From assembly GCA_029248755.1 (NCBI GenBank), contig JAQWIR010000035.1, forward strand, positions 1-56,482: a DNA stretch of 56,482 nucleotides. The letters are read 5' to 3'. The translations under genes were made by a program, and so were the position numbers. Below the pieces are notes generated by a model. That model had not been told where the DNA came from. It made no database searches and saw nothing but the letters and a program-made list of their open reading frames with translations. The first letter of the stretch is position 1. Every line of letters begins with the position of its first letter. Shown here piece by piece: positions 9,320 through 56,240 of this stretch. This stretch comes from Porticoccaceae bacterium. GTDB taxonomy: Bacteria > Pseudomonadota > Gammaproteobacteria > Pseudomonadales > Porticoccaceae.

Positions 9320-10290
9320 TTAGTCCCAATAAATCTTTTGCTTGTGTTGGGCTACTGTTGGGTTGTCGGGTTTATACATTTCAAAGTAGAAGTATTTGCC
9401 CTTGGCCTCGTCGGTGTTGTTGTAGAAGGCGTATAGATTTGGTTTTTATCAAAATATACTCTGAGGAAACCCTTAGCAGAGTCGTATATTTTTTTAATAG
9501 TACTGCTATACTCAGTGGGCATGATTTCACCGTAAAGTTTTTGCAGCGAAACCTCACCATCATCATACTTAACCAAGCATTTGAGTGAATTATCGTAAAT
9601 ATAAAAAATTTCATCATCAGATACTTGACGATGACAGAGAGAAATATCAGAGTTGAAAAACAGCTGTTGTATAGTGCCTAAAACATTTGAGCCATCATTG
9701 TAGCGCTCTCTTTCAGCAGCTATTTCTTTTAAATACTTAATATTCCACAGACTATTTATTTCATCATATTCAGCGAGAAAACTTTGAATATTGGAAAAAC
9801 CATAATAATCATAATAATAATCATCAACTTTTTTGTTAATTCCGACATTAATAATGATTGTTTTTCTATCCCAAGGATAATTCTTGCCTGATTTAAAGTA
9901 TTCGTAATAAACCTGTGGGTTGGGTAATAAAATATCAGTTTGGCTTTCAATATCAGAGATACTGGGAATAGGCTGTTCAAACAAAACAGCACCGTTCCCG
10001 TTCTTAACAATGGTTTTATCCTTAACTGTGGTTATCTCTTCATTAGCTATCACATTTTTTGCAACTTGGGTCGTTTCCCATTTATAAGTATCTGTATTTA
10101 ACTTAGCAAACTTTTGAATACCATTCTTATTTACCGTGTAATCTAATCTGTAAACTAGGGTTAAATTTCCTGATTTGTCTGTATATAACCCGTCAATATG
10201 AATTTCATAACGCTCAGGTGCCGAACAGCAACAGGCAGTCACTAGGACTGCCAAAAAAATGATTGGTATTAATTTAATAAACTTTAACAA
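9320..10290 (-). pseudogene. Lipoprotein of unknown function, copy 1, frameshifted near its 3' end
   Basis: This is the paralogue of the lipoprotein at 8113-9099, with lipobox LVTAC. As read, the frame ends at 9352 with an unrelated basic tail after YFDKNQ (312 residues). Around 9444-9446 copy 1 reads AGATTTGG where copy 2 reads AGATTCTGG, a one-base loss. Restoring one base reopens the frame to YFEMYKPD...IYWD and a stop at 9320, matching copy 2 to its last residue. I therefore annotate 9320-10290 as one gene with a single frameshift. A sequencing error is possible. The start overlaps the 3' end of the C39-like gene by 17 bases. Confidence 0.75.
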
Positions 10291-12715
10291 AGGTCACCAA
10301 CCCAAATCTCATATAATTAGATCTTGAATCAAAACGTATGTAGCCCCTGTGGTTATACAATGTATCTACTAACAACCACCGCCTATCAGGCAATGCTTTT
10401 TTCCAGCATGAGCCACTGTATTTTTGCCGCTTGTACCCAATAACCGGCATTGTGTGCCAGCCTAATTTTTCCTTCTGGCTAGATACCCTAGTGACTTTCA
10501 TGGCACCAAACATAACGGGTTGATTTCTTCTGACGTAGTGCGAAATTATCCTGTGTTGGTAAGCCCTATTCCAAGGCGACGAATACCAAGTGTAGGCAAA
10601 ACCTCTCATGCCCTTTTCGCGAATAAAATCTTTGGTAACGCGCGGTAACCGCCAGAAAAATTGCCTTATATGAGTACCACCTTTTTCCGTTGTTTTTGTT
10701 CTTTTAGCTACAGCTATAGCAAGTGGGTTGAATTGACTATATCTATCACTTTTAGCCGCTTGTATTTGTTGTTCGGTTTTATATGGTGCTATGTTCTTAA
10801 CATTCGCTGTATAAAATTCCTTTTTCCCTTTTATAATGTGGTGGTGATAATTCAGAATCATAGCGACACTTGCCACTACGCAATACTCAACATTGTTATA
10901 GATTGATATATCCCTATACCAATCATCTCCTTTGTAATAAGCCTTATCGCTTTTAACCCCCTTAATCCGCCTTTTTTCATATTTCTTTTTACAATCCCTA
11001 AAAGTAACTTTCTTAAAGAACTTTTTGATTTTGCGTCTTAATTTTTTAAACCAACCCCTAGTTTGACCCTTGCTTTCAATGGCTATTTCTGCGACTTCTA
11101 CTTGCTTGTTTTCAGTCGCTAGGTCTTTATATTCGACCCATTCATTGACCCTGTCTTCGGTGGCTTCTTGTTCAAGAGCAACTTTATCTACTGATTGTTC
11201 AGCTTCTATACTGTCGTTCATTTCGGTTAAAACTTGTTCTTTTGTCTCTTTATCATAGTCGTCACTGGCAATAACTTCCTGTTTGGCGAGTGCAAATTGT
11301 TCTTTTGCCTGTTCTTCGCGTTGCTGTTCTATCTCTGCTTTGTTATCTATTTCATAAATAGCACCCGCTCTGCCCTCTTGGGTGAGCATTATTGGGTTTT
11401 CTTGATTAAATGAATTAGCAAGGGAGTAAACCTGATAGGTACCAAGCAGATTGCCATGTTGATCTTTAAAGCTGTGATACAAGTTAGAGGGTGCTATATC
11501 TAGGCTTTCGCTGATTTTAATGCCGCTATAACCCTGATCAGCGAGTTTTTTAATTATCGCTTGTTTGTTGGCAAAGTAAGGGCTTAGGCCATCAAATTTT
11601 TGCAGCTGTGCGCCATAGTCGATACTGGCACCATAGAGGTAGGACTTAAATTTAAAGTCATCTATTTGGTCATTTTCTATTAACGCATTAAGTATATTCT
11701 CGTTAAGAATATAGTCACCCTCTACAAAGGTGAAAAGCACCACACTGTTTTTGCCTTTTACATCTGAGAATAACTGGGAGTGGACCAGCGTCATTGAAAT
11801 ACTTTCTTCACCGGCCTGTTCTTGGGCTTCGTAAAGCGCTGCTTTGAAGATATTATCAAGAAAGTTGATTTTGGCATCGCCATATAAATTCACATCACCA
11901 TCGATTTCGGCATTACCTAAAATATTAACTTCGCCATAAGAGGTAAATGACCCACTGCCATGCAGCCGACCAATGGTAACTAGCTTTTCAACGCTAATAT
12001 TTCTATCGACTATTAGGGCTTTTTCGAAGGGGGTGCCAGTATTGATATTAAGCTCACCCCGCGCATCTAAATCACCCTTAACCATCAAGGTACCAGCAAT
12101 AAATAAATTAGCAGCTTGAATAGAAAGGCTAGCTTCAACCACTAAGGGCGCATTTAAGGTGGCTTGGTTGGTGGTAAGCGTCCATGTGTTATTTTCGTAT
12201 GAAAATTCTATATCGCTGTTGGCTATGTCGGTATCTTTTAAACCCTGTTGTTTATAGAGAGCTTTACCGTCAGCGCTCAGCAGATAGTATTCATCAAGGT
12301 TGTTGGTATTAAGGTATTCACTGACCTTTAAGGCTCTTATTTGTACATATTTACCTTCTTTCTCATCTAATGGACTGTCATAGTTAAATGAGCGAACAAT
12401 GGAGCCATCAGGGTTATTAGCAGCAGTAACTCTGCCAGATATATCGAGCGATAGACTTCGGGCATTAATAGCCCCATTACTATGCACATCGGCCAGAGGG
12501 CCATCGGTGGCAAAGTTATTTTGTACATTAATATCGCCACTGGAAACCAGCGCATATTTTCTAAAGGATGCGGGTTCAGTTTCAAGTGCTAGTGTTTGGT
12601 TACGTTTTTGATAAGCGGTTTCTTTGGGTTCTGAGGTTGATTGTTTACAGGCGCTTAGGCCTATAACAATACTTAGACTTATAGCTATAAGTTTTAAAAT
12701 CTTTGGTATATCCAT
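10274..12715 (-). CDS. Large lipoprotein with bactofilin-like repeats and C-terminal C39-like cysteine peptidase domain
   Basis: This 813-residue lipoprotein (signal to LSAC, Cys23) has three visible parts. Residues about 45-290 contain short hexapeptide-like repeats (GDLDARGELNINTG, GNAEIDGDVNLYGDAKI) like polymer-forming beta-helical or bactofilin-type modules. Residues about 430-560 are Glu/Gln/Lys-rich and probably coiled coil. Residues about 595-813 form a papain-like C39-type domain with candidate triad Cys612 (NNVEYCVVASVAMILNYH), His754 (GWHTMPVIGY) and Asp784 (LLVDT). A strong ribosome-binding site (TAAGGAGGTA, complement of 12721-12730) precedes the ATG, and this is the first gene of the leftward operon. 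The last exported segment is duplicated downstream with its lipoprotein partner. Substrate and role are unknown; a surface protease or a C-terminal effector domain are both possible. Confidence 0.75.
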   Translation of the reverse strand: MDIPKILKLIAISLSIVIGLSACKQSTSEPKETAYQKRNQTLALETEPASFRKYALVSSGDINVQNNFATDGPLADVHSNGAINARSLSLDISGRVTAANNPDGSIVRSFNYDSPLDEKEGKYVQIRALKVSEYLNTNNLDEYYLLSADGKALYKQQGLKDTDIANSDIEFSYENNTWTLTTNQATLNAPLVVEASLSIQAANLFIAGTLMVKGDLDARGELNINTGTPFEKALIVDRNISVEKLVTIGRLHGSGSFTSYGEVNILGNAEIDGDVNLYGDAKINFLDNIFKAALYEAQEQAGEESISMTLVHSQLFSDVKGKNSVVLFTFVEGDYILNENILNALIENDQIDDFKFKSYLYGASIDYGAQLQKFDGLSPYFANKQAIIKKLADQGYSGIKISESLDIAPSNLYHSFKDQHGNLLGTYQVYSLANSFNQENPIMLTQEGRAGAIYEIDNKAEIEQQREEQAKEQFALAKQEVIASDDYDKETKEQVLTEMNDSIEAEQSVDKVALEQEATEDRVNEWVEYKDLATENKQVEVAEIAIESKGQTRGWFKKLRRKIKKFFKKVTFRDCKKKYEKRRIKGVKSDKAYYKGDDWYRDISIYNNVEYCVVASVAMILNYHHHIIKGKKEFYTANVKNIAPYKTEQQIQAAKSDRYSQFNPLAIAVAKRTKTTEKGGTHIRQFFWRLPRVTKDFIREKGMRGFAYTWYSSPWNRAYQHRIISHYVRRNQPVMFGAMKVTRVSSQKEKLGWHTMPVIGYKRQKYSGSCWKKALPDRRWLLVDTLYNHRGYIRFDSRSNYMRFGLVTFVKVY

Positions 12716-14097: not shown

Positions 14098-17000
14098 TTA
14101 AAAAGGGTTTTCTGTGCAGCTACCATAAGCGACAAGACCAATTACAATATCTGAATTACCTACATCAATAAAGCGGTCATCCCAGGTCCCGGTACTACAA
14201 CCACCAAAATATAAACCAACGCCACTTTCAAAACCATCCCATGTGCCATATGAAGGTTGGTTGCGGAACTTATACATATAAGACGCATTAGCTTGCAACG
14301 GAATTGTAATGGACCAAACGTCGCTTCCATTATCAGTCATTAGGAAACCGGTTTGGCCCAGATCACCTCCTGCTAGATAGACACCCTCAGTATTGGTATC
14401 TACCAAATTCATGTCAACCTGAAAGGTCACAGAGACATTATCTGCAGGCGGTTGAGAATCTCCGTTAAGTGAGTTAATGGCGCTTTCAAGCCAATCCATT
14501 CTGTCTTGATACCATTGTTTTAAGTGGTCTACCTCTTCTTGATAAGTTTCATAGAAAACTGGATTTGGCCATACATACTGACCTAGTGTTTGCCATTTAT
14601 TGTCATTTTCCTGCTGTGACCATTGAAGTCTATCTGCATGGAAATCAATTTTTTCAAGAATAAATTGCTGATTGTCTCTAAAGAAATTAAATCTTTCTCT
14701 TACTTTGGTAACAAAATTAGGATCTTGTAAAAGTCTACCAATCCATGGATTCTGTTTAATCCACCAACCATAAGTATATTCTGTGTCATCATAATCAACG
14801 TTACCAAAACCAAGATCATGATCCCATAATGGCCCCATTTTTATCTTTTCACCGGGTATAAGATGGAAGAAGATACTTGAATACCAACGTGCATCTTGAT
14901 TTTTAATAATTTCGTTAATCAAATACCAATCAACAAAGCTGTCTACATCGATATATGCCGCGTAGCCGGATACTGTGCTTGCAAAATTACTTCCAAACAG
15001 AGCGTCTTCAAACTGGTTAACAAAGCTATTTATGTAGGTGTAACGTGGATCCTGTGTAAACGATAACCCTGTCTCATCTATTAGATCAATACTCGGCTCT
15101 TTGATAGCTATGACATTAAAAGAATTAGTTGAAAAATATACATCGTCATCATCCAGCCTGTGTAGCTGATCTATTTCTAGTAAATAACCATCATTTGTAA
15201 TGGCTACGCGCCTATTAGTCTCTTCAACTTTTTGAGTTATGTTATAGGTACCTTGATAGTCATTGTTAATATACACCTCCGCATATTCGCTTTTTGGCGT
15301 CCAATCTAAATTACTGATATACCCCATTTCAAAGGCTGTAGTATTGCGAACTAGAGTTTTATCAGAATACTCCGCTAAGAAAATCCATTTCTTATCTTCA
15401 GGCATATCTAGAAATTCTTCTTTTGATGCAAATTTCATTTGATAGGGCTTTTTGGGATGAATGCCCCAGGTTGAATTTCCACGTCCCCTTATTTCTATTG
15501 CGGTGCTATCCATATCTGAAATATAGCGCCCGCCATCGACTGACACTGTACCGTTGACATAATTTTCTTTTGAGTCAATTGATACGAAATTTTCAGTGGT
15601 GATATTTACAATTGGCAGACCCGTAAATTTAGTAACATCTACGGAATAAGATTTACTGACCCCTGAAGGTTTTGAAATCTTGTAGACCACTGGCTGAGTA
15701 AAATCATTTACCGTCGAGCTATTTTCCTGATCAGTTGTGAAGACAGAAATGTTAGTACCATCATGTTCAAAGGATGCAATAAGTTGTTTTACTGATGTAT
15801 TTACAGGTATTCGACCAGTTATTGTATTGGTATTAATATCAAGTATTACATCATTTATAAGATCTGGATTGTTAGACCTTAAGAACTTAAAACTACCCAT
15901 ATTTGGTGCCTGATCAACAGTTATAGTCCTAGAAACTGAAGAGGAATTGCCTGCGGAATCAATGGCAGTGTAAGTTAAGGTATAAGAGCCAAGGGTTGTG
16001 CCAATTGATCCTGTAATAATTACATTTACATCGCCATCAGTTGCATCATTTGCAACTGCTCCTAGCTCGACATAATTATCACCAATTGCTAAGCCTACGG
16101 CTGCATCTCCATTTAAGGTAATTTCAGGGGCTGTATTGTCTGGTGCCTCTGTATTTTGCCCAGGCATATGATCTTGTATATATTGCTGTACATCAGAGTG
16201 AGTTGATCTTGTTGAACCCTGACCAATTGCACCATCGATTAACGCGCTTCCGGTAATACCAAATAAGTAGCGAAGAAGTAGCAAGCCATCAGTCAATGCA
16301 TCAACTTGTCCATTATTGTCAATATCAGCAATGACCATCGATGAATTAATTGACTGCTCAACTTCCTCATTGGTTAATGGTGAATTTTGCGCAACTGCAC
16401 CATTAACTAAGAATTCACCTCTTAAGCCAAAGGCATGACGCAACATCATAAGTCCATCTGATAGCGCATCTGCGGTACCATTTTTGTCGAAATCCCAATT
16501 CGCCGGAGAAATTATTAATTGATAATCATCACCTGCGAAAACAAATCCTTCAGAATTACTAGATTTAGAAAAACCAATGGTTGTATATTCTGTAAATTGT
16601 TGGGCTACATTAGCCGCAACAGCAAAATCAATACTAAATAAATTAGCGGGTAGCGCTTGATTTGGCCAATCGCCATTAACAGAAGCCCATGCAAGGGATA
16701 CATAGCTATCAGTGCTTTGATTATTATCGAAATTATCAACATCAAGTTCAACCATTGAACCACTGAAAATATTGTCTTTTTCAATATACTCACTGACCTG
16801 AGTAAAGCTGAGCTTTGTACTATCAAAATGAATTCTTAAACCAAGCCCAGTAAGTTTGTTATTATTAGTTGATACCTCATAGTTAACGTCTAGGGTAAAT
16901 TGTTTACCTGGAGATAACGTGGGTGTATTTAAAATACTCACTATCTGAGATCTAGTGGTAAAACTTGGATCAAGAGGCGCCATATCGGAATTATCTCCAG

Positions 17001-19398
17001 TACCATCTCCATCCGTATCTAACCATTCCTGATCATTATCTGGAAATACATCAGAGTTATCGCCTACACCATCAGCATCAGTATCAACCGATTCGCTGGC
17101 ATCATCTGGAAAAACATCAGAGTTATCGCCTACTCCGTCACCGTCTGTATCAGTAGTTTCGTTTGAATTATTTGGAAAAACATCTTCATTATCACCAATC
17201 CCATCTCCATCAGTATCCACTGATTCACTGGAATCATCTGGGAAGGCATCGTCATCATCTAGCACACCATCGCCATCACTATCGACAACACTGTTAAATT
17301 CATCTGACCACACAAGATCATTTGACCCTGATTCATAGACGCGAATGTAATCAACTTCCATTTGGCTTTGGGTAAACCCACTAACTATATTCGGTTCAAT
17401 CGCTACGTTAAGTAAGAGAAAGAATTCTGAATCATAAGGCCATGTATCTGCATTTTTTACAGATGGGTTGTAACGGTAATGCTCTATTCCGTCAATTTTG
17501 AAAATAATTCTACTGGCATTCCAATCCATGCTGTAAGTATGAAATTCTGACGAAATATTAGAAATACTTCGTCCACCATGGTTAATAGTCCCACCATAAC
17601 TTGAGGTGGTATGCATTGCACTCTGAGCATAGCCAGGGTTACTTCCCCAATGTTCTAGGATATCTATCTCACCAACAGCGGGCCAGCTTGTTGTACCATA
17701 GCCCTGTGAGGCCCAATAGGTGCCTGTTTCACTGATACTTTTACCCAGCATCCATACTGCAGGCCATGTACCAGCTCCAACTGGCATTTTCGCCCTAAAT
17801 TCTACAACACCATATTGAAAGGCAAATTTAGAATTAAGACGAGCTGATGTATATTGCTTAGTAACATCCTGATTTGTATAAGCCTCGCTTCTAGCAACAA
17901 TTTTAAGTGTGCCGTCACTTACATATGAATTTTCGGTGCGGTCTGTATAGTGCTGCAGTTCATCATTGAACCAACTATCAGCACTACCATCTCCATTGGT
18001 GTCCTTAGGCAATAATGTTTGATGAAACCACTTAGTTGAGTCAATAGGGACACCATCAACGTCTATATCATTGCCATTAATTGGTGGTTCATCAGCCACT
18101 GCATTGGTTTGAGTTAGACTAAACCAGTTTAGATTCATACCTGCCGAAGCAGCATCAAATCTTATAATATGAGTACCCGAAGTAAGTGCAACAACGCGTC
18201 CTTGTTGTGATTGCCAATTTTGCCAGCCACCCGAAGAAGGAATTGCAAATACGTCTGCATATTGATTATCAACGAATACCCTAAAACCTAGACTACTACC
18301 ATTCTGGCTGGCTGTTCGATAGTTAAAGATATAATTAGAGGTTGAGGGCACATTTACAACATATGTCATTGAGTCAAATGCATCAATATAGCCTATATTT
18401 TGCCCACCACCCGTATCAGTGGTATCTTCGATTTGAATACCATTTTCAAGGCTGAAACACTCTGCTTCAACTTTTATAACACTATTGTTTTGTGACGATG
18501 AACTACAACCGATCTGATTATTATTTCTCGATACTTGAACATTTTTTATAGTTACAGGTATATCACGATTGGTTAAATACAGGATCAATGATTCATAACT
18601 ATTATTAGAGCCCGATGGAATAGCAATTGAATATGTAGTTTCTGTAGAACCACTTACAGTAACTGAGGAAGTATCAAATGCTGGATCTACATCTGGAAAA
18701 GGAAGTTTTTCAAAGCGAAAACGAACACCAATTGCACTATTAGACGATGCAGTGAAGCTAATAACTCCACCATCAGGAAAACTTAAGGGATATATATCAT
18801 CATTAATATTTGCATAACCAGACCAGCTTTCAGCGCCTGAAGGAAATTCAAGTGTCGACTCAGTAATGGTGGCTCCACCAAATGCTGCCCATGATGCTAC
18901 ACCACTAGACCCAGTTCCAGAAGAGGGGTCTGAGGAGCCTGATGGACAGCTGCCATAGGCCACAACGTCCAACACCATATTGGCACTACCAACATCAACA
19001 TAGCGATCACTGTAATCACCTGTAACACAGTTACCTGCAATTAATCCTGCTGAATCCTCAAAACCATCCCAAGTACCATAGGATGGCTGATTACGAAATT
19101 TATAAAGATATGTGGTATTGGATGATAGTATAAGTGTCACAGAATATATATTGTTGCCACTGTTTGATAAAAGATGACCCTCTTGGCCAAGGCTGCCTCC
19201 GGCTACATATACGCCATCGGTATTGATTGTATCTACCGCTGACATATCAACCTGGAAAGTCACAGTGACATTAGAATAAGCAAATCCACTGACTAAAATA
19301 GAAACAAATAGAGTAACTATTTTTACAAAATTAAGAGTTTTATTATTTAAATGGCTTTGAATACTCTGTTTTTCTATTTCAAAATTCATGACTGACAT
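14098..19398 (-). CDS. Secreted multimodular GH16 laminarinase with cohesin-like, dockerin-like and CotH kinase domains
   Basis: The product is 1766 residues. Modules by rough position: signal peptide to 43; module A 44-152 (VTFQVDMS, YLYKFRNQPSYGTWDGFE); module B 170-292; CBM6 310-430; GH16 450-690 with catalytic GEIDILEHWG (Glu577, Asp579, Glu582); thrombospondin-3-like DTDGDG repeats 705-810; cohesin-like 818-965; dockerin-like doublet 968-1080; Ig-like 1090-1163; a beta domain 1166-1258; CotH kinase 1265-1650 (RGRGNSTWG, GPLWDHDLGFGN); and a second module A 1660-1766. The GH16 motif points to endo-beta-1,3-glucan (laminarin) cleavage. Start: a GTG at 19416 opens the frame, but GAGGGA sits correctly before the ATG at 19398, so I use the ATG. 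It is 119 bases downstream of the di-haem oxidoreductase gene on the same strand. Confidence 0.92.
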   Translation of the reverse strand: MSVMNFEIEKQSIQSHLNNKTLNFVKIVTLFVSILVSGFAYSNVTVTFQVDMSAVDTINTDGVYVAGGSLGQEGHLLSNSGNNIYSVTLILSSNTTYLYKFRNQPSYGTWDGFEDSAGLIAGNCVTGDYSDRYVDVGSANMVLDVVAYGSCPSGSSDPSSGTGSSGVASWAAFGGATITESTLEFPSGAESWSGYANINDDIYPLSFPDGGVISFTASSNSAIGVRFRFEKLPFPDVDPAFDTSSVTVSGSTETTYSIAIPSGSNNSYESLILYLTNRDIPVTIKNVQVSRNNNQIGCSSSSQNNSVIKVEAECFSLENGIQIEDTTDTGGGQNIGYIDAFDSMTYVVNVPSTSNYIFNYRTASQNGSSLGFRVFVDNQYADVFAIPSSGGWQNWQSQQGRVVALTSGTHIIRFDAASAGMNLNWFSLTQTNAVADEPPINGNDIDVDGVPIDSTKWFHQTLLPKDTNGDGSADSWFNDELQHYTDRTENSYVSDGTLKIVARSEAYTNQDVTKQYTSARLNSKFAFQYGVVEFRAKMPVGAGTWPAVWMLGKSISETGTYWASQGYGTTSWPAVGEIDILEHWGSNPGYAQSAMHTTSSYGGTINHGGRSISNISSEFHTYSMDWNASRIIFKIDGIEHYRYNPSVKNADTWPYDSEFFLLLNVAIEPNIVSGFTQSQMEVDYIRVYESGSNDLVWSDEFNSVVDSDGDGVLDDDDAFPDDSSESVDTDGDGIGDNEDVFPNNSNETTDTDGDGVGDNSDVFPDDASESVDTDADGVGDNSDVFPDNDQEWLDTDGDGTGDNSDMAPLDPSFTTRSQIVSILNTPTLSPGKQFTLDVNYEVSTNNNKLTGLGLRIHFDSTKLSFTQVSEYIEKDNIFSGSMVELDVDNFDNNQSTDSYVSLAWASVNGDWPNQALPANLFSIDFAVAANVAQQFTEYTTIGFSKSSNSEGFVFAGDDYQLIISPANWDFDKNGTADALSDGLMMLRHAFGLRGEFLVNGAVAQNSPLTNEEVEQSINSSMVIADIDNNGQVDALTDGLLLLRYLFGITGSALIDGAIGQGSTRSTHSDVQQYIQDHMPGQNTEAPDNTAPEITLNGDAAVGLAIGDNYVELGAVANDATDGDVNVIITGSIGTTLGSYTLTYTAIDSAGNSSSVSRTITVDQAPNMGSFKFLRSNNPDLINDVILDINTNTITGRIPVNTSVKQLIASFEHDGTNISVFTTDQENSSTVNDFTQPVVYKISKPSGVSKSYSVDVTKFTGLPIVNITTENFVSIDSKENYVNGTVSVDGGRYISDMDSTAIEIRGRGNSTWGIHPKKPYQMKFASKEEFLDMPEDKKWIFLAEYSDKTLVRNTTAFEMGYISNLDWTPKSEYAEVYINNDYQGTYNITQKVEETNRRVAITNDGYLLEIDQLHRLDDDDVYFSTNSFNVIAIKEPSIDLIDETGLSFTQDPRYTYINSFVNQFEDALFGSNFASTVSGYAAYIDVDSFVDWYLINEIIKNQDARWYSSIFFHLIPGEKIKMGPLWDHDLGFGNVDYDDTEYTYGWWIKQNPWIGRLLQDPNFVTKVRERFNFFRDNQQFILEKIDFHADRLQWSQQENDNKWQTLGQYVWPNPVFYETYQEEVDHLKQWYQDRMDWLESAINSLNGDSQPPADNVSVTFQVDMNLVDTNTEGVYLAGGDLGQTGFLMTDNGSDVWSITIPLQANASYMYKFRNQPSYGTWDGFESGVGLYFGGCSTGTWDDRFIDVGNSDIVIGLVAYGSCTENPF

Positions 19399-19517
19399 TC
19401 TTATTCCCTCACACAATAAGCTTTCTTAAATATATTTCAAGATGTGTCTATTTTTTAATACGGGGTTAATAGGATTAAAGCCCTATAACAGATATTTATT
19501 ATGTTTGTCCTATAAAG

Positions 19518-22500
19518 CTACAAACTCTCTAAAAAGTCAATAACTTGATCTTTTTGACTCGATGAAAGCGCTTGATATGCATCTTTAGAATCCAACGCTT
19601 CGCCACCATGCCAACGAATAGCCTCGTCAATGGAACGTGCACGACCATCATGTAAATAACCGATACGATTTATATCATTGGAATCTCTTGATTCAGATAT
19701 TAAGTCATTGCCTTTTGCATCACCTAACATTACGTTTTTAACCAGACCTAGACCCCATAATGGCGCTGTTCTCCATTCGGAACCGCTGGCATTTCCTTCG
19801 GCAAGATTATCCGCTAATCCAGGGCCCATATCATGTAGTAGTAAATCTGTATATGGATAAATTGTTTGACCTCGAAGCTCTGCTAGTGGGTGGAAGTCAC
19901 CTGTCACAATAGATGGCCTATGACAGCCAGCACAACCTATTTCTTCAAATAGAGTTTCACCTGTTTGATTATTGTAGTTACGTCGTGCACCTACGCCCAA
20001 TAGTGAGATATATTTAACTATGTCTTGAATGTGGTTATCAGCTAACTCAGCGCCAGAATTTCCACAATTTGATTGCTCACTACCACAATCTGGATTGGGT
20101 AAGGCTGATGTCATAACACCCATATCTGTGTTTAAGGCTGATTCAATTTGGTTTTTGACGCTAAAAGTACCCGCTTTGTAGCCAAAGCGCCCCAATCTTG
20201 TAACACCACTAACTGGGTCTTCAACCAGTGAAGCATGACCTGAAATACCATCTTGGTTTTCATCGGTTTCATCAACCCAAGCTAGAATTGTTGACTCATC
20301 AATAGCCTCTAGAAGCCCCATACCAACAATTTGAGGGGCAATTCGAGCAGAAAATTGTGGTGGCGTACCAATAGAAAATTGATAATTTGGAGAACGCAAA
20401 CCGTTATCAAGTTCTGTCCATTGACCCAATTTTACAGTGCCCTCAGAAGTACCTGAGCCTAATTTTTCTGGCTGCAAGACTCGGCCTATTGAGCTGAGGG
20501 GCTCACCATTTTCATTGCCTACTCTAAATACCCATTTTTCAAGCTCTTCGCCAACATCCGCTACCAAAGCCTTACCATTTCTGACATGGCATGAAGCGCA
20601 AGATTCACCTATATAACGATTACCCGCTTTTCCTGCCTGTTCTGTCCAAGCTGGATTATCATGACGTTCACCATGAACACCATCAACAAAACTTGTATGG
20701 TGAAGCCGACGCCCTCTGACAAATGGCTGTGCGTTACCTGGGCTCATATTGGTCGCCATTTGCATAAAGCGACCTGCAGGTTCATTGGTGTAGTTATAAC
20801 CTAATGTGGTTTTACCGCCACTCAAACCTTTTGATGGGATGGGTGTGCCATCTTGCTGAGCAGTTTGCCATTCAAAGGGATGGATCCCCTGCTCGCCTAT
20901 TACGTAAACAAAACTAGTGCCATAGTAATTTTTACGAGATCCAGCCGGAGGATTAAGTAGAAACATACTGGCCTCAAACTCCATATTCATACCTGTTTGA
21001 AGTGTCTCCTGTATCTGACCGCCCAACTGCCACCGACTGACAATGCTTAGAGTATATTTATGCTGACCACCCTCGGAGCTGGTTTTAACAAAGTTATCGT
21101 CCCATGTACCGGACCCGTGGTAGCCAACACCGGGCTCATTGGGATTAGCCTGTTGGCCTATTGGCTGTGGATTAAACCAAAACTGACCGGTTGTTGATGC
21201 GCCTGAATACCATACTCTAAATTCTTTGGCGCCTAACTTAGCTTCGGTAATCCAAGTCACTTTAATAAGACTTTGACCATTTGGCACATAGTCCTCAAGC
21301 TGAATGCGCATGGTTCTATACTCCCAATAATGGGCAAGATAGTGATCGTAGTGGTCTTGAAACCCAGAATCTTTGGCATGTCTGTCTCTACCTCTATCTG
21401 CCAAGCGCGTTACTACAGCTCCATCATCTCTGATAAAAGAAACAATAGGCTCAAGTTCTGTACTATCGTTATATAGCTTATTTATTTGGCCAATATTGCC
21501 ATATTCAATTGAATGCCACCCGCTAACATTGTCGCCCGCTCTTTCGTCAGGTGCTTGATCACCGGCATAGAAATAAAGGGGTCGACCCTGATAGGTCACT
21601 TGTTTTGTTCCATCATCTCTATCTATTGAACCAAGATTTGAAATACCTGAAGCTGAATCATCATTAACATAGACAGGCGGCCAAGCAGAAGCACAACCAT
21701 CATAGCAATTGCTTACACCTCCAGAAATTGGATCGCTATCAAAAACATAAACAACAAATTGTGGCTTATCAGAATTTGCGCCACCCACTAGCAAACCATT
21801 TGCCGAAGAAATTTCATCTGATGGCTCAACTATGATTGGCTCAACTTCATTGTTTTGATCAAGCTGATCATCATTAGCTTGATCATCAGGGTTATCATTT
21901 AAATCAGAGCTACTATCACTATCACTATTACTATTACTGTCACTATCACCAGCATTTGAATTAGATTCATTACAAACTGCATTAGTAGGCACAGAAATAT
22001 TTCTTAAAATCCAATTTCCACCCGTGCTGAGTTTACTCCAAAGAATATTAAGAGACTCATTGGCTGGCATAGATCCAGACCATGTAAGAATTTTACCTAT
22101 AGTCTCGTTATCGCTTGATGGATCGTCAGCAATACTTGCACCAGTGGAGCTTTCTACTAATAGAAAATCAACTGGATCACTATCGCTGGCAGTTATAGCT
22201 ACTCGAAGGCTATTGTCGTTTATATTTTCAATTGTTAAATCAATGGCCGTTGCTGACTCTGCTTGCATTTTCAAATGGTAAGCCGTAGTTGCACAGTAGT
22301 CTGAATCAGGCCCAGTTTGAACGAGTTCATCGTCAGAAGAATTTTGATCTGTGTCAGTGGGATTAGAAACATCATCGTTGCTATCTATATCAGAATCATT
22401 GTCAGCGGCATTAGTATTGGGCATAAAATCAGCTAGATATTGACTAACTTCTTCAGCTGAACTTCTTGAGGCTGAAGTTGCAGTAGCGCCGCTGATAAGA

Positions 22501-22835
22501 AGCTCATTTGTGAGCCCAAATAGATAACGAAGAAGAAGTAAGCCATCAGTTAAGGCATCAGTCTGTCCGTCAGCATCAATGTCGGTAATATTGCTAGCTG
22601 AGGCTATTTCTGATTCAACCTGCGAAGCAGTCATTATTGAGTCATTCGATAAAGCACCGTTTACTAGGCTTTCTCCTCTTAACTCGAAAGTATATCTAAG
22701 CATCAACAAGCCATCAGTTAACGCATCAGCGTTTCCATCACGATCAAAATCCCAGCTCGAATGACTGTTATTGGCAAAACTACTAAGACTTATTAGGTAT
22801 AAACCAAAAAGTCCAATAGGGATTAATCGAAGCAT
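19518..22835 (-). CDS. Secreted dockerin-like di-haem oxidoreductase (DHOR/DUF1111) with COG4315-type repeat
   Basis: This 1105-residue exported protein has a signal peptide of about 21 residues and a dockerin-like doublet at 28-138. A Ser/Asp/Asn linker is followed by an unassigned beta module (180-288), then another acidic linker. At about 345-445 is a domain like the secreted repeat of COG4315 ([28 protein letters not shown]). From about 460 to the end it resembles the DHOR family of di-haem thiol-oxidoreductase/peroxidase-like proteins, with haem motifs CASCH (746-750) and CAGCH (968-972) and the [15 protein letters not shown] signature near the end. It would act outside the inner membrane and needs cytochrome c maturation. 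Its ribosome-binding site AAAAGG is good. The substrate is unknown; proximity to glucanases suggests a polysaccharide-linked redox role. Confidence 0.85.
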
Positions 22836-23188
22836 ACAAAAACCTTTTAATACTTTTATATTAGTATATTAATGCATTTGGTTGACTTTAAAAATGCTTA
22901 AAAGCTATATTAAAGCTTAATTTGTGACCTTTTGGTCGTGTAAGCAGTGTTTGTGACAATATAGTTTAATGAACATATCATGTCGTCCGAATAGCACAAT
23001 TCATACTCGAAAGATTTACCCAAACAAGCATTTTTTAACACAGCTTGTTTTGACTGACCTGAAAGGCTAACGCTAATATGTCTCATTGGTAACATATTAA
23101 TAAACTATAACTTTGATACAATTTTGTATGATATAAGTACAGATATGATAAAAAATACGGCTCTTCGACCCCAATAGGAAGTGTTCTT
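22836..23188. promoter_or_regulatory. Divergent intergenic region between oxidoreductase and scaffoldin-like genes
   Basis: These 353 AT-rich bases separate two divergent dockerin-like genes and must hold promoters for both. An open frame of 61 codons exists on the minus strand (22910-23095), but it has no ribosome-binding site or recognisable content. A good site (AGGAAGTG) precedes the rightward gene. No clear operator palindrome was found by eye. Confidence 0.5.
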
Positions 23189-25072
23189 ATGTCTTTAATA
23201 AAAAAATTAGGCTATACGCTTAAAATATATTTAGCCTTGGCAGTAATGCTAGGTACGACTTCATTTGCCAACAGCGCATACCAATATAAAGATTATGACT
23301 TTTATGATCCTTATGATGAAATTGAGTATGACTCAGAAAAAGAAGATATCTATTACAATGATAATGAGATGTTATCTTTATCTGAAAAACATCAGGGTGC
23401 CGAAACATGGGATGATTACTATGCAGAAGCTGATCATATCTATTCCGATATACCAAAAGGTTTCAAAAAGAGATTAAGAAATTTTTTCGATTTTATCCGT
23501 TCATATAGATTGGTGATAGAAGATATTGGCAAAGACTGGCACGCCTATGAGTGGGATTATGAAGATGATGATCATCATGAAGATAATGATGATAATTTTG
23601 ACGGTTCTATTTCAATTCAGCTTACTAAAGCATTTGGTGGTGCAACCTATGATGAAGGTTTATCTTCTTATGTAATTCCCTCAACCGCAAATGATAAGTC
23701 TGGATTTCGCGGAAGATTTCATGACTATTTCCCCTTAAATTTTGAAGATGGCGGTCAAATTCACTTCACTGCTACTTCAGAACAGCCAGCAAATATTACT
23801 TTTTGGTTAAAATCTAAATTCAAGCGCCATAAAAATATTAAGACAGATAGTATCTTAGTCAGCGGCGAATGTGCTACTTACTCAGTTGATATATCGTCTA
23901 ATAAACGCTCCGTCTACAAAGCGTTATATATGTTTATAACGGAACGTGACATCCCCGTTAGTATTGGTGAAATAGTGATCGGAAACGACATACCCTCCTG
24001 TGACCAAGAATCCAATGATCTTGATGACGGGGATACCGACGGTTCTGATACAGACGGCTCTAATACCGATGGTTCAGATACAGACGGTTCTGATAGCGAT
24101 GATTCAGATACAGACGGGTCTAATACCGATGGTTCAGATACAGACGGCTCTAATACCGATGATTCAGATACTGACGGCTCTGATACAGACGGTTCTAATA
24201 CTGATGGCTCTGATACCGACGGATCAGACGACACCAGCAATGAAACAACAAAACCAGTCCAAAGAATCACTGTTTCTAATCAACCTACTGGGCTTTTAGG
24301 TGATATAGCTCAAATTGAAGTGACCTATGATGCTAGCACCAACAATAATCAGCTGTCAGGTATAGGCTTGCGTATCCATTTTGATAGCACTGTACTAACA
24401 TTTAATGCCGTAAGTAATGTTCTACAGCAAGATAACATCGTCAATGGCGAAGGCCCAATAAATGATGTGGATGATTTTGATAATGATCCACAGACCGATA
24501 GCTTTATTTCATTTGGCTGGGCATCATTGTTTAATAACTGGCCTAATACGGAGTTACCCTCTGTATTAATGAATATTACCTTCGGTGTTTCGGCTTCTGT
24601 TGATCTTAATAGCGTAAATTCAACGCAAATTAACTTTTCAGATATAACCACGTCGACTGGCTATGAATTTGAAACAGTTAACCTAAATCTTGAACTTACT
24701 GAGACAGAATCTACATGGGATTTTGATGGTAATGGAGATGCCGACGCCCTAACCGATGGTTTAATTATGATGCGTTATTCCTTTGGTCTTCGTGGCGATT
24801 CTATGGCAGATAATGTTATGGCAGCTAACTCAGTCATGTCTGCACCTCAAGTTGAGGAAAGAATACAAAAGTCGATGCAAATAGCTGATATTGATAATGA
24901 CGGTAATGTAGATGCACTCACTGATGGATTAATATTGCTAAGACACTTATTTGCAATAGAAGATGAAAATTTAACGCATGGCGCAATTGGTATCAGTGCT
25001 ACTAGAAAAACAAGGACTGCTATTAAACAGCATTTAAATAAACATATGCCCAAGAAAAAGCAAAAGGATTAA
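23189..25072 (+). CDS. Scaffoldin-like secreted protein: module B, acidic linker, cohesin-like, dockerin-like
   Basis: This 627-residue exported protein has no visible catalytic domain. After a signal peptide (about 1-27) comes an extremely acidic, Tyr-rich stretch (28-140). A homologue of module B of the GH16 protein follows (about 145-272: AFGGATYDEG, FPLNFEDGGQIHFTAT, ITERDIPVSI). Next is a linker of thirteen 5-residue DTDGS-type repeats (282-346), a cohesin-like domain (about 352-500, GIGLRIHFDSTVLTFNAV) and a dockerin-like doublet (511-623). Binding module plus cohesin plus dockerin, without an enzyme, is the layout of a cellulosome scaffoldin. Assembly is inferred, not shown. It is divergent from the oxidoreductase and ends in a strong terminator. 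Confidence 0.8.
   Translation: MSLIKKLGYTLKIYLALAVMLGTTSFANSAYQYKDYDFYDPYDEIEYDSEKEDIYYNDNEMLSLSEKHQGAETWDDYYAEADHIYSDIPKGFKKRLRNFFDFIRSYRLVIEDIGKDWHAYEWDYEDDDHHEDNDDNFDGSISIQLTKAFGGATYDEGLSSYVIPSTANDKSGFRGRFHDYFPLNFEDGGQIHFTATSEQPANITFWLKSKFKRHKNIKTDSILVSGECATYSVDISSNKRSVYKALYMFITERDIPVSIGEIVIGNDIPSCDQESNDLDDGDTDGSDTDGSNTDGSDTDGSDSDDSDTDGSNTDGSDTDGSNTDDSDTDGSDTDGSNTDGSDTDGSDDTSNETTKPVQRITVSNQPTGLLGDIAQIEVTYDASTNNNQLSGIGLRIHFDSTVLTFNAVSNVLQQDNIVNGEGPINDVDDFDNDPQTDSFISFGWASLFNNWPNTELPSVLMNITFGVSASVDLNSVNSTQINFSDITTSTGYEFETVNLNLELTETESTWDFDGNGDADALTDGLIMMRYSFGLRGDSMADNVMAANSVMSAPQVEERIQKSMQIADIDNDGNVDALTDGLILLRHLFAIEDENLTHGAIGISATRKTRTAIKQHLNKHMPKKKQKD
24032..24226 (+). repeat. In-frame 15-bp tandem repeat (13 units) encoding a DTDGS linker
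   Basis: Thirteen units of 15 bases encode DTDGS or close variants (NTDGS, DSDDS, NTDDS). Codon variation between units argues against very recent expansion, but the tract could still change length by slippage without breaking the frame. It separates the binding-like module from the cohesin-like module. Confidence 0.9.
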
Positions 25073-40692: not shown

Positions 40693-40903
40693 TTCTTTTC
40701 TCTTGTTCATAGAAAAAACAATATTATTGTATTATGTATTTATATTTATATAGATTTAACAGCAATATCCCTTACATCTGCTAAACTCATTCTATACAGG
40801 TAATTAAATCGTTGAAATAAGAAATGATTTTTAGACTAGTTGTATTAGTTTTGCACGGAAAGCAGCACTAACTAGCAGTTATAAAATTGGAAAAGTGAAA
40901 AGT

Positions 40904-42247: not shown

Positions 42248-42249
42248 CT

Positions 42250-43755: not shown

Positions 43756-43767
43756 AGGCCTGAGTTT

Positions 43768-45129: not shown

Positions 45130-45734
45130 ATAATCAAAACTTACTAAGCCCCCAAACTCTTGTAATCATTTTCATTCTTTCTATTTGCTTGCAGGCCACA
45201 AAAGCACAAGCTGATGGTTTAGAGATAACTTTAAACGAAAAAGAACAGGCACTACTGAATTCTTTGGAGCAAAAAAATCAAGCGGATTCATTAATAAAAC
45301 TACTAGAAACACTAGAAAAGCTCAGCGACTATCCAACAGAAGCCATCGATGAATTAACCGGCAAAAATCCTAATCATCAAGTGATAAATCGGGTGGTTAA
45401 ACGCCTAAAAAAAGCAAAAGAAAAATCTGTTAACGGTCTGGCGCCCCTAAATTTTGACAGCCACAAAGATGCAACTGATGGCGATACCCCAAAAAATAGC
45501 CCGTTAATACCGGTATTCGCTTCTGCATCTAGTGATAATGGAATTACTACAGGAAAAGTTATTTTTAAAAATAATGCCGGTACAGCCATTTCTTCTCATG
45601 TGGGTGAAGCCTTTATCTATATGGGGGAGCAATATAAATTGTTAAGCGTATCGCCCATTACAGATACCCAAGGGCAATTTAATATTAGCCTAAAAACACC
45701 AACATCTACTCAAATTTATATCTGGCCAAGGTAA
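45126..45734 (+). CDS. PilP-position periplasmic pilus protein
   Basis: This 202-residue exported protein has a signal peptide of about 30 residues (LVIIFILSICLQATKAQA), a Leu/Lys-rich helical region (40-105) and a C-terminal beta domain (about 135-200) with GITTGKVIFKNNAG and YKLLSVSPITDTQG. It sits where type IVb operons encode PilP, between the PilO-like protein and the ATPase. The C-terminal strand pattern resembles the small beta domain of PilP/GspC-like proteins, but I cannot confirm homology. The ATG overlaps the previous gene (ATGA). Confidence 0.55.
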   Translation: MNNQNLLSPQTLVIIFILSICLQATKAQADGLEITLNEKEQALLNSLEQKNQADSLIKLLETLEKLSDYPTEAIDELTGKNPNHQVINRVVKRLKKAKEKSVNGLAPLNFDSHKDATDGDTPKNSPLIPVFASASSDNGITTGKVIFKNNAGTAISSHVGEAFIYMGEQYKLLSVSPITDTQGQFNISLKTPTSTQIYIWPR

Positions 45735-45738
45735 AAAA

Positions 45739-47325: not shown

Positions 47326-47329
47326 ATAA

Positions 47330-48370: not shown

Positions 48371-48418
48371 TTTTGAATAACTTTTATGGAAGAAATTAAA
48401 CTACAGGAGTAACAAAAA

Positions 48419-49840: not shown

Positions 49841-49884
49841 GATAAATTAAATGCTATTTGTTCGCATGAATCAAAGGAGCAAAA

Positions 49885-49914
49885 AAGGAAGCAAGGAAGG
49901 AAGCAAGGAAGGAA
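49885..49914 (+). repeat. Simple AAGGAAG repeat tract overlapping the ribosome-binding region of the next gene
   Basis: Two perfect tandem 12-bp units GCAAGGAAGGAA (49891-49902, 49903-49914) and part of a third precede the ATG at 49925 by 10 bases. Each unit contains two Shine-Dalgarno-like AAGGAAG motifs. Confidence 0.85.
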
Positions 49915-49924
49915 GAAAATATAT

Positions 49925-51076: not shown

Positions 51077-51086
51077 GCCCAACACT

Positions 51087-53900: not shown

Positions 53901-56240
53901 ATGTCGCGATTAAAAAGTTTTGTCATCACTGCCCTACTGTCACTTGGCATTAATAGCCTGGTAGTACTGCCTGCCTGTGCAGAAACACTAAGCTGGGATA
54001 TTGATAATGATGGCAATACTGATGCTTTAACCGATGGCTTGTTATTACTAAGATTTAGTTTTGAACTCACTGGTGATTCCCTTACCAGTGGCGCTATATC
54101 GGCAGGGTCTAATCTTTCTCCCTCAGAAGTAGAAACCAAACTGAATGCCACTCAAGCGATTGCTGATATTGATGGTAATGGTGAGGTTGATGCATTAACA
54201 GATGGCATACTACTTTTACGTTATTTATTTGATGTATCCGGTGATTCTTTAATTGATGGGGTTATATCGACTAATGCAACACGTAATACTGTATCTGCAA
54301 TAAATCAGTACATACAACAATATTTACCTATTTCTCGACTTAGCGCAAAGAGAGGCATTGGTTATGGCACAGGCGGAGGCCAGCAAGAGCTTTCTATTCA
54401 GGATTTAAGCCTTATTAACGAAAGAATGTCATGGTTTTATGACTGGAGTACGTCTTCTCCTGAATCAGTTAGAGGAATTTATCCATCCATGGGTATTGAT
54501 TTCACCCCAATGTTATGGGGTGCTGACTCCAACGAATTCAGCATGCGTCAATATCTTGATAATAATCCTGGCGTAAAATATTTACTTGGCTTTAATGAAC
54601 CTACACATTTAAATCAGGCCAATCTAACACCGCAACAAGCAGCTGATGCATGGCCTAAATTAGAGAGCATTGCTGATGACTATAATTTGCAATTAGTTAG
54701 CCCAGCTGTTGGCAACTCTACCCTTTATGGTGCATGGGATTATCTGGATGCTTTTTTTGCGGCATGCACTAACTGTCGAGTGGATTTTATTGCCGTGCAT
54801 AAATATGGAAAAGATCAAGAAAAATTTAAGGAGTTTGTAACTGAATCCTATCGATATGGAAAGCCAATCTGGGTAACAGAGTGGGCTGGTAACGGTGGCG
54901 GTGGCGGTGTCAATTGGCCACAGATACCGGAGGAACATATAGATTTTTTGGCCGATACAACGCGCTGGCTTGAGGCAGAAGATAACGTCTATAGATACGC
55001 TTGGTTTGTGGGGCGTAACAGACAGGGCATTGATAGTTTTCCTTATAACGGACTCTTAGGAGAAAATGGCGAAACAACGGCCCTAGGGGAGACCTATTTT
55101 TCTATACCCAGTAAGGGTTATACCTACCAAAGTGGCGCAATAATTCCAGCGGTGGGTGCGAACAATCTAGAGGGTTTTACCCACAATGAGGTTTCAGATG
55201 GCGATAATATTGTTGCAACAACCGCAGACACATCGGCTAATAGCTATTTAGAGTTTGATTTTAATATTCAAGAAGCACAAAACTATGTGCTTGAGATTAG
55301 AGTTGCATCCCCTTCTAATGCTTCACTTACCCTGTTACAGGGACAAGAAACGTTTGAAGCTATTCAAACTATCAATGTAGGGACAACGCCCAATTGGCAA
55401 ACTATTGTCTCTAACGCTTTTGAATTAAGCACAGGGAAGATAACTCTTCGAATTGAGGCAGACCCCACTATTGCAATAACCTCTGTTAAATTAGCTACCC
55501 CTAATAATTTGTCAGAAACACCGCCTACAGCGGGAATTACCGTTGGAGAAAGTCCAGATTTTATTGCTAGAGACGATACCACTTGGACCCATGTGATACC
55601 CTTAGTGTACTCATCAGATGGCGCATCAAGTCAAGGGACACAAACACTTTCGCTTAATATAACTGAATTACCGGATGATGGCGCTGGGTATAGAGTTATC
55701 AGAACAAATGCTAATGGCTTTTGGTTCAGTTCAAGTCGGGAAGAATTAGTGCTAGGCAATAACATCATTACCGTTGCCAGTGAAAACTTTGATAGACATG
55801 TCAGGATTCAGTTATCCAGTCCTGCTATTAGATTTGATTCACTATCTATCAATGAATCTCAAGTTTTACCGGATTCTGATTCTCAAGATACAGGGCAAAG
55901 TACAGAATTATCCGTGGGTGAAAGCGCAGCTTTTTCATCAACTAACAACGAAACATGGATAAAAGTGATTACATTAGCACTGGCTTCTGATGGAGCCTCA
56001 AGTCAGTCTAGCCAGACATTATCAATTAATATTACAGAGTTACCTGATGCTGGTGCGAGCTATCGTGTTTATAAAACAACAGCTAATGGCAATGATTACC
56101 TTAGTAATGGACAAGAATTAGTGCTTGGCGATAACAGTATTACAGTTACATCTGTCACTTTTGATAGAACAGTAAAAATTCAGGTATCAAGTGCTGACGT
56201 GAAATTTGACAGTCTTTCTGTGAATGGCAATCAGCTATAG
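53901..56240 (+). CDS. Secreted dockerin-like GH128 beta-1,3-glucanase with CBM and repeated beta modules
   Basis: This 779-residue exported protein has a signal peptide of about 27 residues, then a dockerin-like doublet (30-143: WDIDNDGNTDALTDG, DIDGNGEVDALTDG). A GH128-like catalytic core follows (about 148-395) with GFNEP (acid/base Glu233) and WVTEWAG (nucleophile Glu327). Next is a CBM6/35-like domain (about 400-535), then two homologous beta modules (about 545-655, 665-779; each with DGASSQ and LSLNITELPDDGAG or its variant, ending in FDSLS). GH128 enzymes cleave beta-1,3-glucans such as laminarin, which fits the GH16 enzyme 35 kb away. It is separated from the pilus genes by 213 bases with no gene. 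A weak hairpin (CTCACTTGAGTGAG) follows the stop. Confidence 0.9.
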   Translation: MSRLKSFVITALLSLGINSLVVLPACAETLSWDIDNDGNTDALTDGLLLLRFSFELTGDSLTSGAISAGSNLSPSEVETKLNATQAIADIDGNGEVDALTDGILLLRYLFDVSGDSLIDGVISTNATRNTVSAINQYIQQYLPISRLSAKRGIGYGTGGGQQELSIQDLSLINERMSWFYDWSTSSPESVRGIYPSMGIDFTPMLWGADSNEFSMRQYLDNNPGVKYLLGFNEPTHLNQANLTPQQAADAWPKLESIADDYNLQLVSPAVGNSTLYGAWDYLDAFFAACTNCRVDFIAVHKYGKDQEKFKEFVTESYRYGKPIWVTEWAGNGGGGGVNWPQIPEEHIDFLADTTRWLEAEDNVYRYAWFVGRNRQGIDSFPYNGLLGENGETTALGETYFSIPSKGYTYQSGAIIPAVGANNLEGFTHNEVSDGDNIVATTADTSANSYLEFDFNIQEAQNYVLEIRVASPSNASLTLLQGQETFEAIQTINVGTTPNWQTIVSNAFELSTGKITLRIEADPTIAITSVKLATPNNLSETPPTAGITVGESPDFIARDDTTWTHVIPLVYSSDGASSQGTQTLSLNITELPDDGAGYRVIRTNANGFWFSSSREELVLGNNIITVASENFDRHVRIQLSSPAIRFDSLSINESQVLPDSDSQDTGQSTELSVGESAAFSSTNNETWIKVITLALASDGASSQSSQTLSINITELPDAGASYRVYKTTANGNDYLSNGQELVLGDNSITVTSVTFDRTVKIQVSSADVKFDSLSVNGNQL

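Follow-up and report, generated by a model that had tools for sequence, protein, structure and literature searches.

The closest described systems are the type I cohesin-dockerin pairs of clostridial cellulosomes, in which the dockerin calcium loop carries D or N at positions 1, 3, 5, 9 and 12, and the cohesins of Clostridium perfringens glycoside hydrolases (PDB 2jh2, 2vo8 and 2w1n), which sit on non-cellulosomal enzymes and belong to a different lineage with different partner modules. Non-cellulosomal cohesin- and dockerin-like modules were reportedly also described by Peer et al. in 2009 (cited in PMC5244752 and PMC10066038). For the marine bacterium Saccharophagus degradans, a passage of one source lists 2 dockerin-like and 6 cohesin-like ORFs (PMC2386152), and a passage of another describes the function of such modules outside the cellulosome as not known (PMC5244752). 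Here we analysed a 56,482-nucleotide stretch of DNA from a Porticoccaceae bacterium (the window), and lean towards reading its modules as a non-cellulosomal cohesin/dockerin-type surface docking system of marine gammaproteobacteria. A literature search, with most subscription journals outside its scope, returned no paper containing the motif DALTDGLL and none containing both Porticoccaceae and cohesin.

Four window proteins share a repeated module (the doublet), with one copy in each ORF as first annotated, and Pfam agreed with the initial naming of three of them as GH16, di-haem oxidoreductase (DHOR) and GH128-type proteins, the last through PF11790 (Glyco_hydro_cc), which we take to be GH128 in CAZy naming. 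The features are:

14098..19416, minus strand: GH16 laminarinase-like protein; reading from a TTG gives 1772 aa, a later ATG being a possible true start (Pfam)
16162..16500, minus strand: dockerin-like doublet of the GH16 protein, internal to the protein (doublet profile)
16504..16956, minus strand: cohesin-like domain of the GH16 protein (cohesin-like profile)
17434..17907, minus strand: GH16 catalytic domain (Pfam match, PF00722)
18532..18885, minus strand: glucanase-associated module of the GH16 protein (own profile match)
19518..22835, minus strand: DHOR with Lipoprotein_15 repeats (Pfam)
22419..22757, minus strand: dockerin-like doublet of the DHOR protein, N-terminal, directly after the signal peptide
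23189..25072, plus strand: scaffoldin-like protein, 627 aa (no Pfam family found)
23627..23980, plus strand: glucanase-associated module of the scaffoldin-like protein (own profile match)
24248..24706, plus strand: cohesin-like domain of the scaffoldin-like protein (PF00963 below cut-off; model resembles PDB cohesins)
24713..25054, plus strand: dockerin-like doublet of the scaffoldin-like protein (doublet profile)
53901..56240, plus strand: PF11790 (GH128-type) glucanase with N-terminal doublet (Pfam)
53991..54329, plus strand: dockerin-like doublet of the PF11790 glucanase (doublet profile)

Secretion of these proteins was judged from signal peptides seen by eye. The GH16 protein also matched CBM6, a surface Ig-like domain and a CotH domain in Pfam; TSP3-like repeats were seen in it by eye. 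The scaffoldin-like protein comprises the glucanase-associated module, a DTDGS-rich linker, the cohesin-like domain and a C-terminal doublet, with no catalytic domain recognised in the Pfam scan, and its name is retained in the sense that it is non-catalytic and pairs a cohesin-like domain with a doublet. Such a protein, together with doublets on secreted enzymes, resembles the arrangement in clostridial cellulosomes. The motifs GLGLRIHFDSTKL and GIGLRIHFDSTVL lie within two domains of about 150 aa that are 42% identical and immediately precede the doublets of two proteins, so that the homology claimed for them by the first-pass annotation stands. The glucanase-associated module belongs to an unnamed family common to the scaffoldin-like protein and GH16, GH81 and GH5 proteins; the scaffoldin-like copy scored 60.0 bits against a profile built without it (108.5 bits, self-inflated, with it), and the profile matched nothing relevant among PDB sequences. 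The module is absent from the adaptor counterparts in three relatives (L043, L044 and L045) and was therefore rejected as a regular adaptor part, which leaves the odds on docking unchanged because these did not rest on it.

As judged from sequence profiles, the doublet is a remote, fairly specific relative of dockerins. Among the four window copies, 38 of 117 columns are invariant, the second to fourth copies being 52, 50 and 44% identical to the first; these invariant columns, with strong genome-wide profile matches, led us to reject chance repeats. In the bacterium's own genome, PF00404 (Dockerin_1) gave 8 matches at E ≤ 1, all on 7 doublets and none elsewhere, and at this threshold it also matched in 9 of 14 control genomes. 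The single match at E ≤ 1 in the window proteins scored 11.1 bits, below the Pfam cut-off of 22.9, and one gene outside the window reached a sum of 28.7 in frame and 17.5 by hmmscan. Searched against PDB sequences, the doublet profile had as best matches one cellulosomal dockerin (E 0.028 and 0.03), and hhalign gave 91.4% over both repeats against dockerins, whereas a two-sequence calmodulin control reached 59.9% over 22 columns. Loop positions 1, 3, 9 and 13 are D in 92–100% of 97 doublet copies and position 5 is N in 67–77%; D1, D3 and D9 are thus conserved, a helix follows the loop and the last acid falls at position 13. Modelled on its own, the DHOR protein's doublet is predicted to be well folded and globular (pLDDT 94.2), and Foldseek of the doublet model returned no dockerin (best E 0.88). 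The likeness to type I dockerins lies in two alignable loop/helix repeats, whereas the doublet differs in its length (~115 aa versus ~60–70), a loop of 13 rather than 12 residues, extra helices and the missing Foldseek match. The dockerin-like label stands for a remote, fairly specific relationship, and falls short in the longer loop, the structure search and the Pfam cut-off.

The likeness to clostridial pairs extends to the putative socket, as the cohesin-like domain is predicted to adopt the cohesin beta-sandwich fold. The window tandem of cohesin-like domain and doublet was modelled with pLDDT 90.4 and pTM 0.69, and Foldseek ranks 1–20 against the PDB were all cohesin or cohesin-complex entries (E 1.5e-8 to 1.3e-6, TMt up to 0.72), the aligned chains being taken as cohesins from titles and chain lengths, with the aligned range in the tandem model not shown. 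These matches, which include the C. perfringens cohesins, uphold the original cohesin-like label. Sequence searches reached less far: the sole own-genome match to PF00963 at E ≤ 1 was the 24248–24706 domain (19.7 bits, below the cut-off of 24.1), hmmscan of the window proteins gave none at E ≤ 1, the cohesin-like profile found no cohesin among PDB sequences, and phmmer of the tandem found nothing relevant there. Stops occur within the frame of the cohesin-like domain in G634, and also in G648 and G666.

A search for further doublet proteins, proposed at the outset, gave 17 doublet matches (E 8.9e-62 to 2.3e-15) and 11 cohesin-like matches (E 4.5e-89 to 0.001) in the bacterium's own 1.65-Mb assembly of an incomplete genome; half copies of the doublet also exist. 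With 13 of the 17 doublets on other contigs, the set is not compact, as had been suggested, and the span 14098–25072 is too small for it. Doublets are carried by GH16, GH81 and GH128-type proteins, as the claim of glucanases among the carriers had it, and also by haem, CotH, beta-propeller and LRR proteins. The Pfam scan covered 12 of the 17 doublet ORFs, of which 3 encode recognised glucanases from beta-1,3-glucan families, as we take GH16, GH81 and PF11790 to be; the set is not confined to laminarin, and the idea that it is built around this glucan finds no support. Given this genome-wide spread and these varied carrier domains, we rejected a compact laminarin set. Unlike clostridial cellulosomes, the system occurs in a Gram-negative organism with carriers far beyond cellulases, and own-genome ORFs hold no more than two clear cohesin-like domains each, L041 adding a third, weak match and several ORFs ending at contig ends; one 2788-aa ORF of a relative (G661:C24) has four matches.

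Among 112 genomes of the family, 37 contain doublets, 23 the cohesin-like domain and 22 both (Fisher test, p 1.5e-12), so that only one of the genomes positive for the cohesin-like domain lacks doublets; p remains 4e-8 without nine genomes (G000, G611, G629, G638, G643, G646, G648, G661 and G666) in which, among the matches listed, the two abut in one frame, both values ignoring shared ancestry, with most positives belonging to one genus. Across the order, doublets were found in 5 and cohesin-like domains in 4 of 244 genomes, the latter nested within the former, and across the class both occurred in the same 3 of 369. The cohesin-like ORFs of the other 13 genomes positive for both, and of G634, carry no doublet. 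Of the 15 genomes in which the genes are unfused, 7 have a doublet gene adjoining the cohesin gene (G523, G566, G586, G636, G642, G649 and G074), with MrtJ between them in four; in the other 8 no doublet gene adjoins it in the stretch read, some stretches ending at contig ends, which also lie close around the cohesin-like gene in G630 and G636. At L140, in G074 with its one cohesin-like and one doublet protein, the cohesin gene is next to a protease-doublet gene, and at L177, L192, L193 and L194 cohesin gene, MrtJ and a half-doublet gene occur together. These neighbourhoods, direct fusions and the predicted cohesin fold argue against the two being independent adhesion or spacer modules, gained with a surface-adhesive lifestyle and not binding each other, which we consider unlikely, even though several carriers also contain cadherin, Ig, HYR, TSP3, collagen or LRR repeats and 15 of the 37 doublet-bearing genomes had no cohesin-like domain in the profile search.

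A set of 159 distinct ORFs, including contig-end fragments, near-copies from close strains and selectively fetched cohesin-only ORFs, comprises 102 with the doublet only, 27 with the cohesin-like domain only and 30 fused. In 20 of the 25 fused pairs listed, 1–3 residues separate the two matches, as would be expected of a rigid intramolecular dyad in which the doublet is stabilised by the Ig-like part and has its real partner elsewhere, comparable to the unit that X-module and dockerin form in clostridial scaffoldins. We regard such a dyad as rather improbable, since most ORFs hold one module without the other, the doublet alone is predicted to be well folded and the pTM of the pair, read by itself, lends no support to a fixed orientation. 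Packing into one intramolecular unit, initially named as the refuting case, is thus not general, and within the 30 fused ORFs the cohesin-like domain may pack closely on the doublet. A role for the doublet in secretion or sorting, as a signal and not a binding module, is hardly credible, because the doublet's usual position near one end (49 N-terminal and 47 C-terminal of the 102 doublet-only ORFs, by our cut-offs) is set against the lack of a fixed end, the internal copy in the GH16 protein, the folded globular prediction and separate signal peptides visible by eye. A lipoprotein-like pattern (crude lipobox) was found in 9 of the 102 doublet-only ORFs, and plug and socket proteins are not cleanly split by lipoprotein signal.

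In relatives, the cohesin-like domain forms the N-terminal part of a long protein whose other end has a JDVT-CTERM-like sorting tag, and the genomes also have a gene for the MrtJ protease. A GGC-type tail, by a crude pattern written after the tails had been seen, occurs in 11 of 27 cohesin-only ORFs, 0 of 102 doublet-only and 0 of 30 fused ORFs; all 11 match JDVT-CTERM, 6 above cut-off. MrtJ was above cut-off in 10 of 10 genomes with tailed cohesin ORFs versus 5 of 19 others. Compared with the JDVT-CTERM/MrtJ pair as known, the difference here is an N-terminal cohesin-like head on the JDVT-type protein in 10 genomes, and in five (G523, G566, G586, G636 and G642) a doublet gene lies beside the cohesin-headed gene; the cohesin ORF adjoining a doublet gene in G649 has no tail. 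The bacterium's own MrtJ-linked JDVT-type protein (2338 aa, Ig/cadherin-like) has no cohesin-like domain, and the expectation that its MrtJ would neighbour a cohesin-headed protein was rejected.

In the docking system that we favour, the doublet, which in each of its two repeats has a calcium-loop-like motif and then a helix, would act as a plug on secreted proteins, and the cohesin-like domain as its socket. In the window's organism, some of the proteins bearing this putative socket have a lipoprotein signal; in relatives the socket would form the N-terminal end of a long protein, for which sorting to the cell surface by MrtJ is to be expected. The scaffoldin-like protein, non-catalytic and equipped with both modules, would serve as an adaptor linking a surface socket to further plugs, with beta-glucanases and other secreted proteins retained at the cell surface as the outcome. 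Binding between the modules, its Ca2+ dependence, the surface location and the adaptor role are what we infer. More tentatively, the whole could be a dedicated surface-display machine outside the clostridia, in which MrtJ- or lipoprotein-anchored cohesin heads receive GH16, GH81 and GH128-type glucanases, among others, by their doublets. Such a machine would equip marine gammaproteobacteria to deal with algal beta-glucan in a cellulosome-like way, and the JDVT-CTERM system would gain a proposed cargo function.

In contrast to non-cellulosomal modules as described so far, one recurrent family pair here brings together co-occurrence, fusion, neighbourhood and sorting-tag evidence, and the function of such modules outside the cellulosome is therefore open to direct tests on small proteins. 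If the docking reading is true, protein engineering would gain a new docking module in the doublet, and some coastal bacteria may break down laminarin with surface-held, not released, enzymes.

The first-pass annotation described four proteins sharing one dockerin-like doublet, two of them with a homologous cohesin-like domain directly before it. All four are present where it placed them and have in common a doublet some 115 aa long, invariant at 38 of 117 columns; in two of them a homologous domain, some 150 aa long and 42% identical between the two, lies immediately N-terminal to the doublet.

14098-19416, minus strand: GH16 protein
18532-18885, within the GH16 gene: copy of a glucanase-associated module
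19518-22835, minus strand: di-haem oxidoreductase (DHOR)
23189-25072, plus strand: scaffoldin-like protein (proposed adaptor)
23627-23980, within the scaffoldin-like gene: copy of the glucanase-associated module
53901-56240, plus strand: PF11790 glucanase

Pfam recognised GH16, CBM6, Ig-like, CotH, di-haem oxidoreductase and PF11790 domains in these proteins, and left the doublet and the cohesin-like domain without a match above cut-off; NCBIfam has no name for either. We take PF11790 to correspond to GH128 in CAZy naming.

Foldseek comparison of the modelled tandem of cohesin-like domain and doublet (pLDDT 90.4, pTM 0.69) with the PDB returned cohesin entries at all of ranks 1 to 20 (top match 5lxv_C, E 1.5e-8; 6kgf_A, TMt 0.72), followed by more cohesins, a CLIPPER adhesin domain, integrins and pilins. 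PF00963 scored 19.7 bits on the cohesin-like domain, under its cut-off of 24.1, as its sole match in the genome at E ≤ 1, and a PDB sequence search with the domain profile found no cohesin. Compared by sequence, the domain is distant from cohesins; judged by its predicted fold, it is a divergent cohesin.

The doublet modelled alone (pLDDT 94.2) gave no Foldseek match (best E 0.88, no dockerin among those listed), which counts against plain dockerin membership. The best match of its profile among PDB sequences was a single dockerin from a cellulosome, present in two entries (E 0.028 and 0.03), and hhalign against five dockerins gave 91.4% across both repeats (control: two calmodulin lobes, 59.9% over 22 columns). 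PF00404 at E ≤ 1 matched 8 places in the genome, all on doublets (7 doublets), and at this loose level also matched in 9 of 14 control genomes. Across 97 doublet copies, D1, D3 and D9 of the repeats are kept in 92–100% and N5 in 67–77%, and position 13 is an invariant D followed by a helix, so that the last D of the loop falls one residue later than in dockerins; the two repeats share a mean identity of 62% over 36 positions. The doublet is probably a dockerin relative; none of the formal tests places it in the family. In a Pseudomonadales MAG, one doublet protein (L108:7746-10376) has a ubiquitin-family domain (PF00240, E 1.2e-25) at its start, along with cadherin domains.

A genome-wide search for further doublets, which the first-pass annotation had proposed, recovered 17 (3 of them half copies) in the assembly (1.65 Mb, 44 contigs, 88.7% complete), and the cohesin-like profile gave 11 matches spread over 8 ORFs, one of which is a fragment at a contig edge. 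Among the 12 of 17 doublet ORFs scanned with Pfam, three recognised glucanases belong to beta-1,3-glucan families (GH16, PF11790 and GH81), the other recognised carriers being the DHOR, a beta-propeller protein, a CotH protein, a BspA-type LRR protein and a weakly cadherin-like protein; a GH5 protein with CBM6 has the cohesin-like domain only. A very large LRR protein carries a C-terminal half-doublet, and near-identical C-terminal ends lie on two contigs (L037, L038). Also in the window are an 813-aa protein (10274-12715) whose bactofilin match stays below threshold (16.8 bits against a cut-off of 27.9), adjoined by two similar lipoprotein-like genes, and a cluster resembling a pilus or type II secretion system (40895-53687; secretin-like, GspE-like ATPase, GspF-like and pilin-like ORFs, named by eye from translations) ending just upstream of the doublet-bearing glucanase.

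Beyond its cohesin-like domain and doublet, the scaffoldin-like protein contains a module of about 118 aa, which recurs in the window's GH16 protein, in the genome's GH81 protein (three copies) and, among relatives, in GH16, GH81 and GH5 proteins. Tested on a profile from which it had been left out, the adaptor's copy scored 60.0 bits, and no relative of the module was found in Pfam or among PDB sequences. Its companion domains prompt the guess that it binds glucan. The gene trio of scaffoldin-like protein, DHOR and GH16 recurs in two relatives' loci (L043, L045) and partly in L044 and L052; the scaffoldin-like counterparts in L043, L044 and L045 have an acidic linker in place of the module, which is therefore no constant feature of the adaptor. 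Ahead of this linker the three counterparts share a conserved stretch, basic and helix-like (by eye). The module itself, unnamed and of about 120 aa, with 28 copies among the matches listed (noted in the window and in L031, L054, L055 and L093), is a candidate new carbohydrate-binding module.

With the tandem as query, a scan of public genomes hit 494 stretches, 162 of them relatives; the best 80 formed 73 loci, mostly from Porticoccaceae, SAR92 and related gammaproteobacterial records (outliers: one Planctomycetaceae, three cyanobacterial, one Rhodospirillaceae). Within these loci, doublets occur in 99 ORFs and cohesin-like domains in 30, with 25 ORFs having both. In the class sample both modules occur in the same 3 of 369 genomes; two of the three (G074, G240) are from other families and have one copy of each on the same contig in separate ORFs. 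The G074 cohesin-like product matches IPTL-CTERM (22.7 bits, cut-off 20.5) and its gene adjoins that of a trypsin-like protease with a C-terminal doublet. The order sample (n = 244) gave nested sets of 5 doublet and 4 cohesin-like genomes, and the family sample (n = 112) 37 and 23, with 22 having both; the lone genome with a cohesin-like match and no doublet (G634) has two stops in the cohesin frame. Ignoring shared ancestry, the Fisher p for the family sample is 1.5e-12, or 4e-8 after dropping nine fused-gene genomes. Against pairing, 15 of the 37 doublet genomes gave no match to the cohesin-like domain. A doublet gene adjoins the cohesin gene in 7 of 15 unfused-gene genomes (13 family genomes, G074 and G240). 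Two loci (L060:2128-11035, L061:2643-8735) encode a stand-alone cohesin-like protein of <200 aa, then a subtilase with a cohesin-like domain and doublet at its C-terminus; the nearest to a multi-cohesin scaffoldin observed is a single 2788-aa ORF of a relative with four cohesin-like matches (G661:C24).

Relatives with unfused genes have the cohesin-like domain close to the N-terminus, and 11 cohesin-only ORFs (about 770–1720 aa) end in a GGC-type tail. A search with this pattern, composed after inspection of those tails, picked out 11 of 27 cohesin-only ORFs and none of the 102 doublet-only or the 30 fused ones; all 11 tailed ORFs match the JDVT-CTERM sorting tag, 6 over cut-off. The paired protease MrtJ was over cut-off in 15 of 29 genomes chosen by hand (10 of 10 with tails, 0 of 7 with neither module). 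Its gene lies beside the cohesin gene in G566 and G586 and, in G523, G636, G642 and G649, between the cohesin gene and a gene whose product has a half-doublet and collagen-like repeats (Pfam-confirmed in G523 and in the adjacent gene of G586; by eye in G636, G642 and G649). In the loci L177, L179, L192, L193 and L194 the half-doublet lies near the N-terminus of the protein whose gene adjoins the cohesin-like gene, with collagen repeats recognised by Pfam in the first two and by eye in the others. The available portion of PMC11980579, which describes the MrtJ/JDVT-CTERM gene pair, does not mention the cohesin-like head seen here. The JDVT-type protein of the window's own genome is without a cohesin-like domain, and the head seems to differ from species to species. 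In that genome the MrtJ gene adjoins one encoding an Ig/cadherin-like protein of 2338 aa that has a GGC-type tail and no cohesin-like domain (L201:1874-8887). Candidate anchored cohesin-like proteins there, going by sequence pattern, are lipobox proteins such as that of L041; L048 and L090 have similar ones.

We think it most likely that these modules make up a docking system of the cohesin/dockerin type on the cell surface. The accessible text of PMC2386152 reports dockerin-like and cohesin-like ORFs in Saccharophagus degradans, and that of PMC5244752 describes some ANME archaea as rich in such domains, their function there not being known; given these precedents, the system would count as a variation on a known type.
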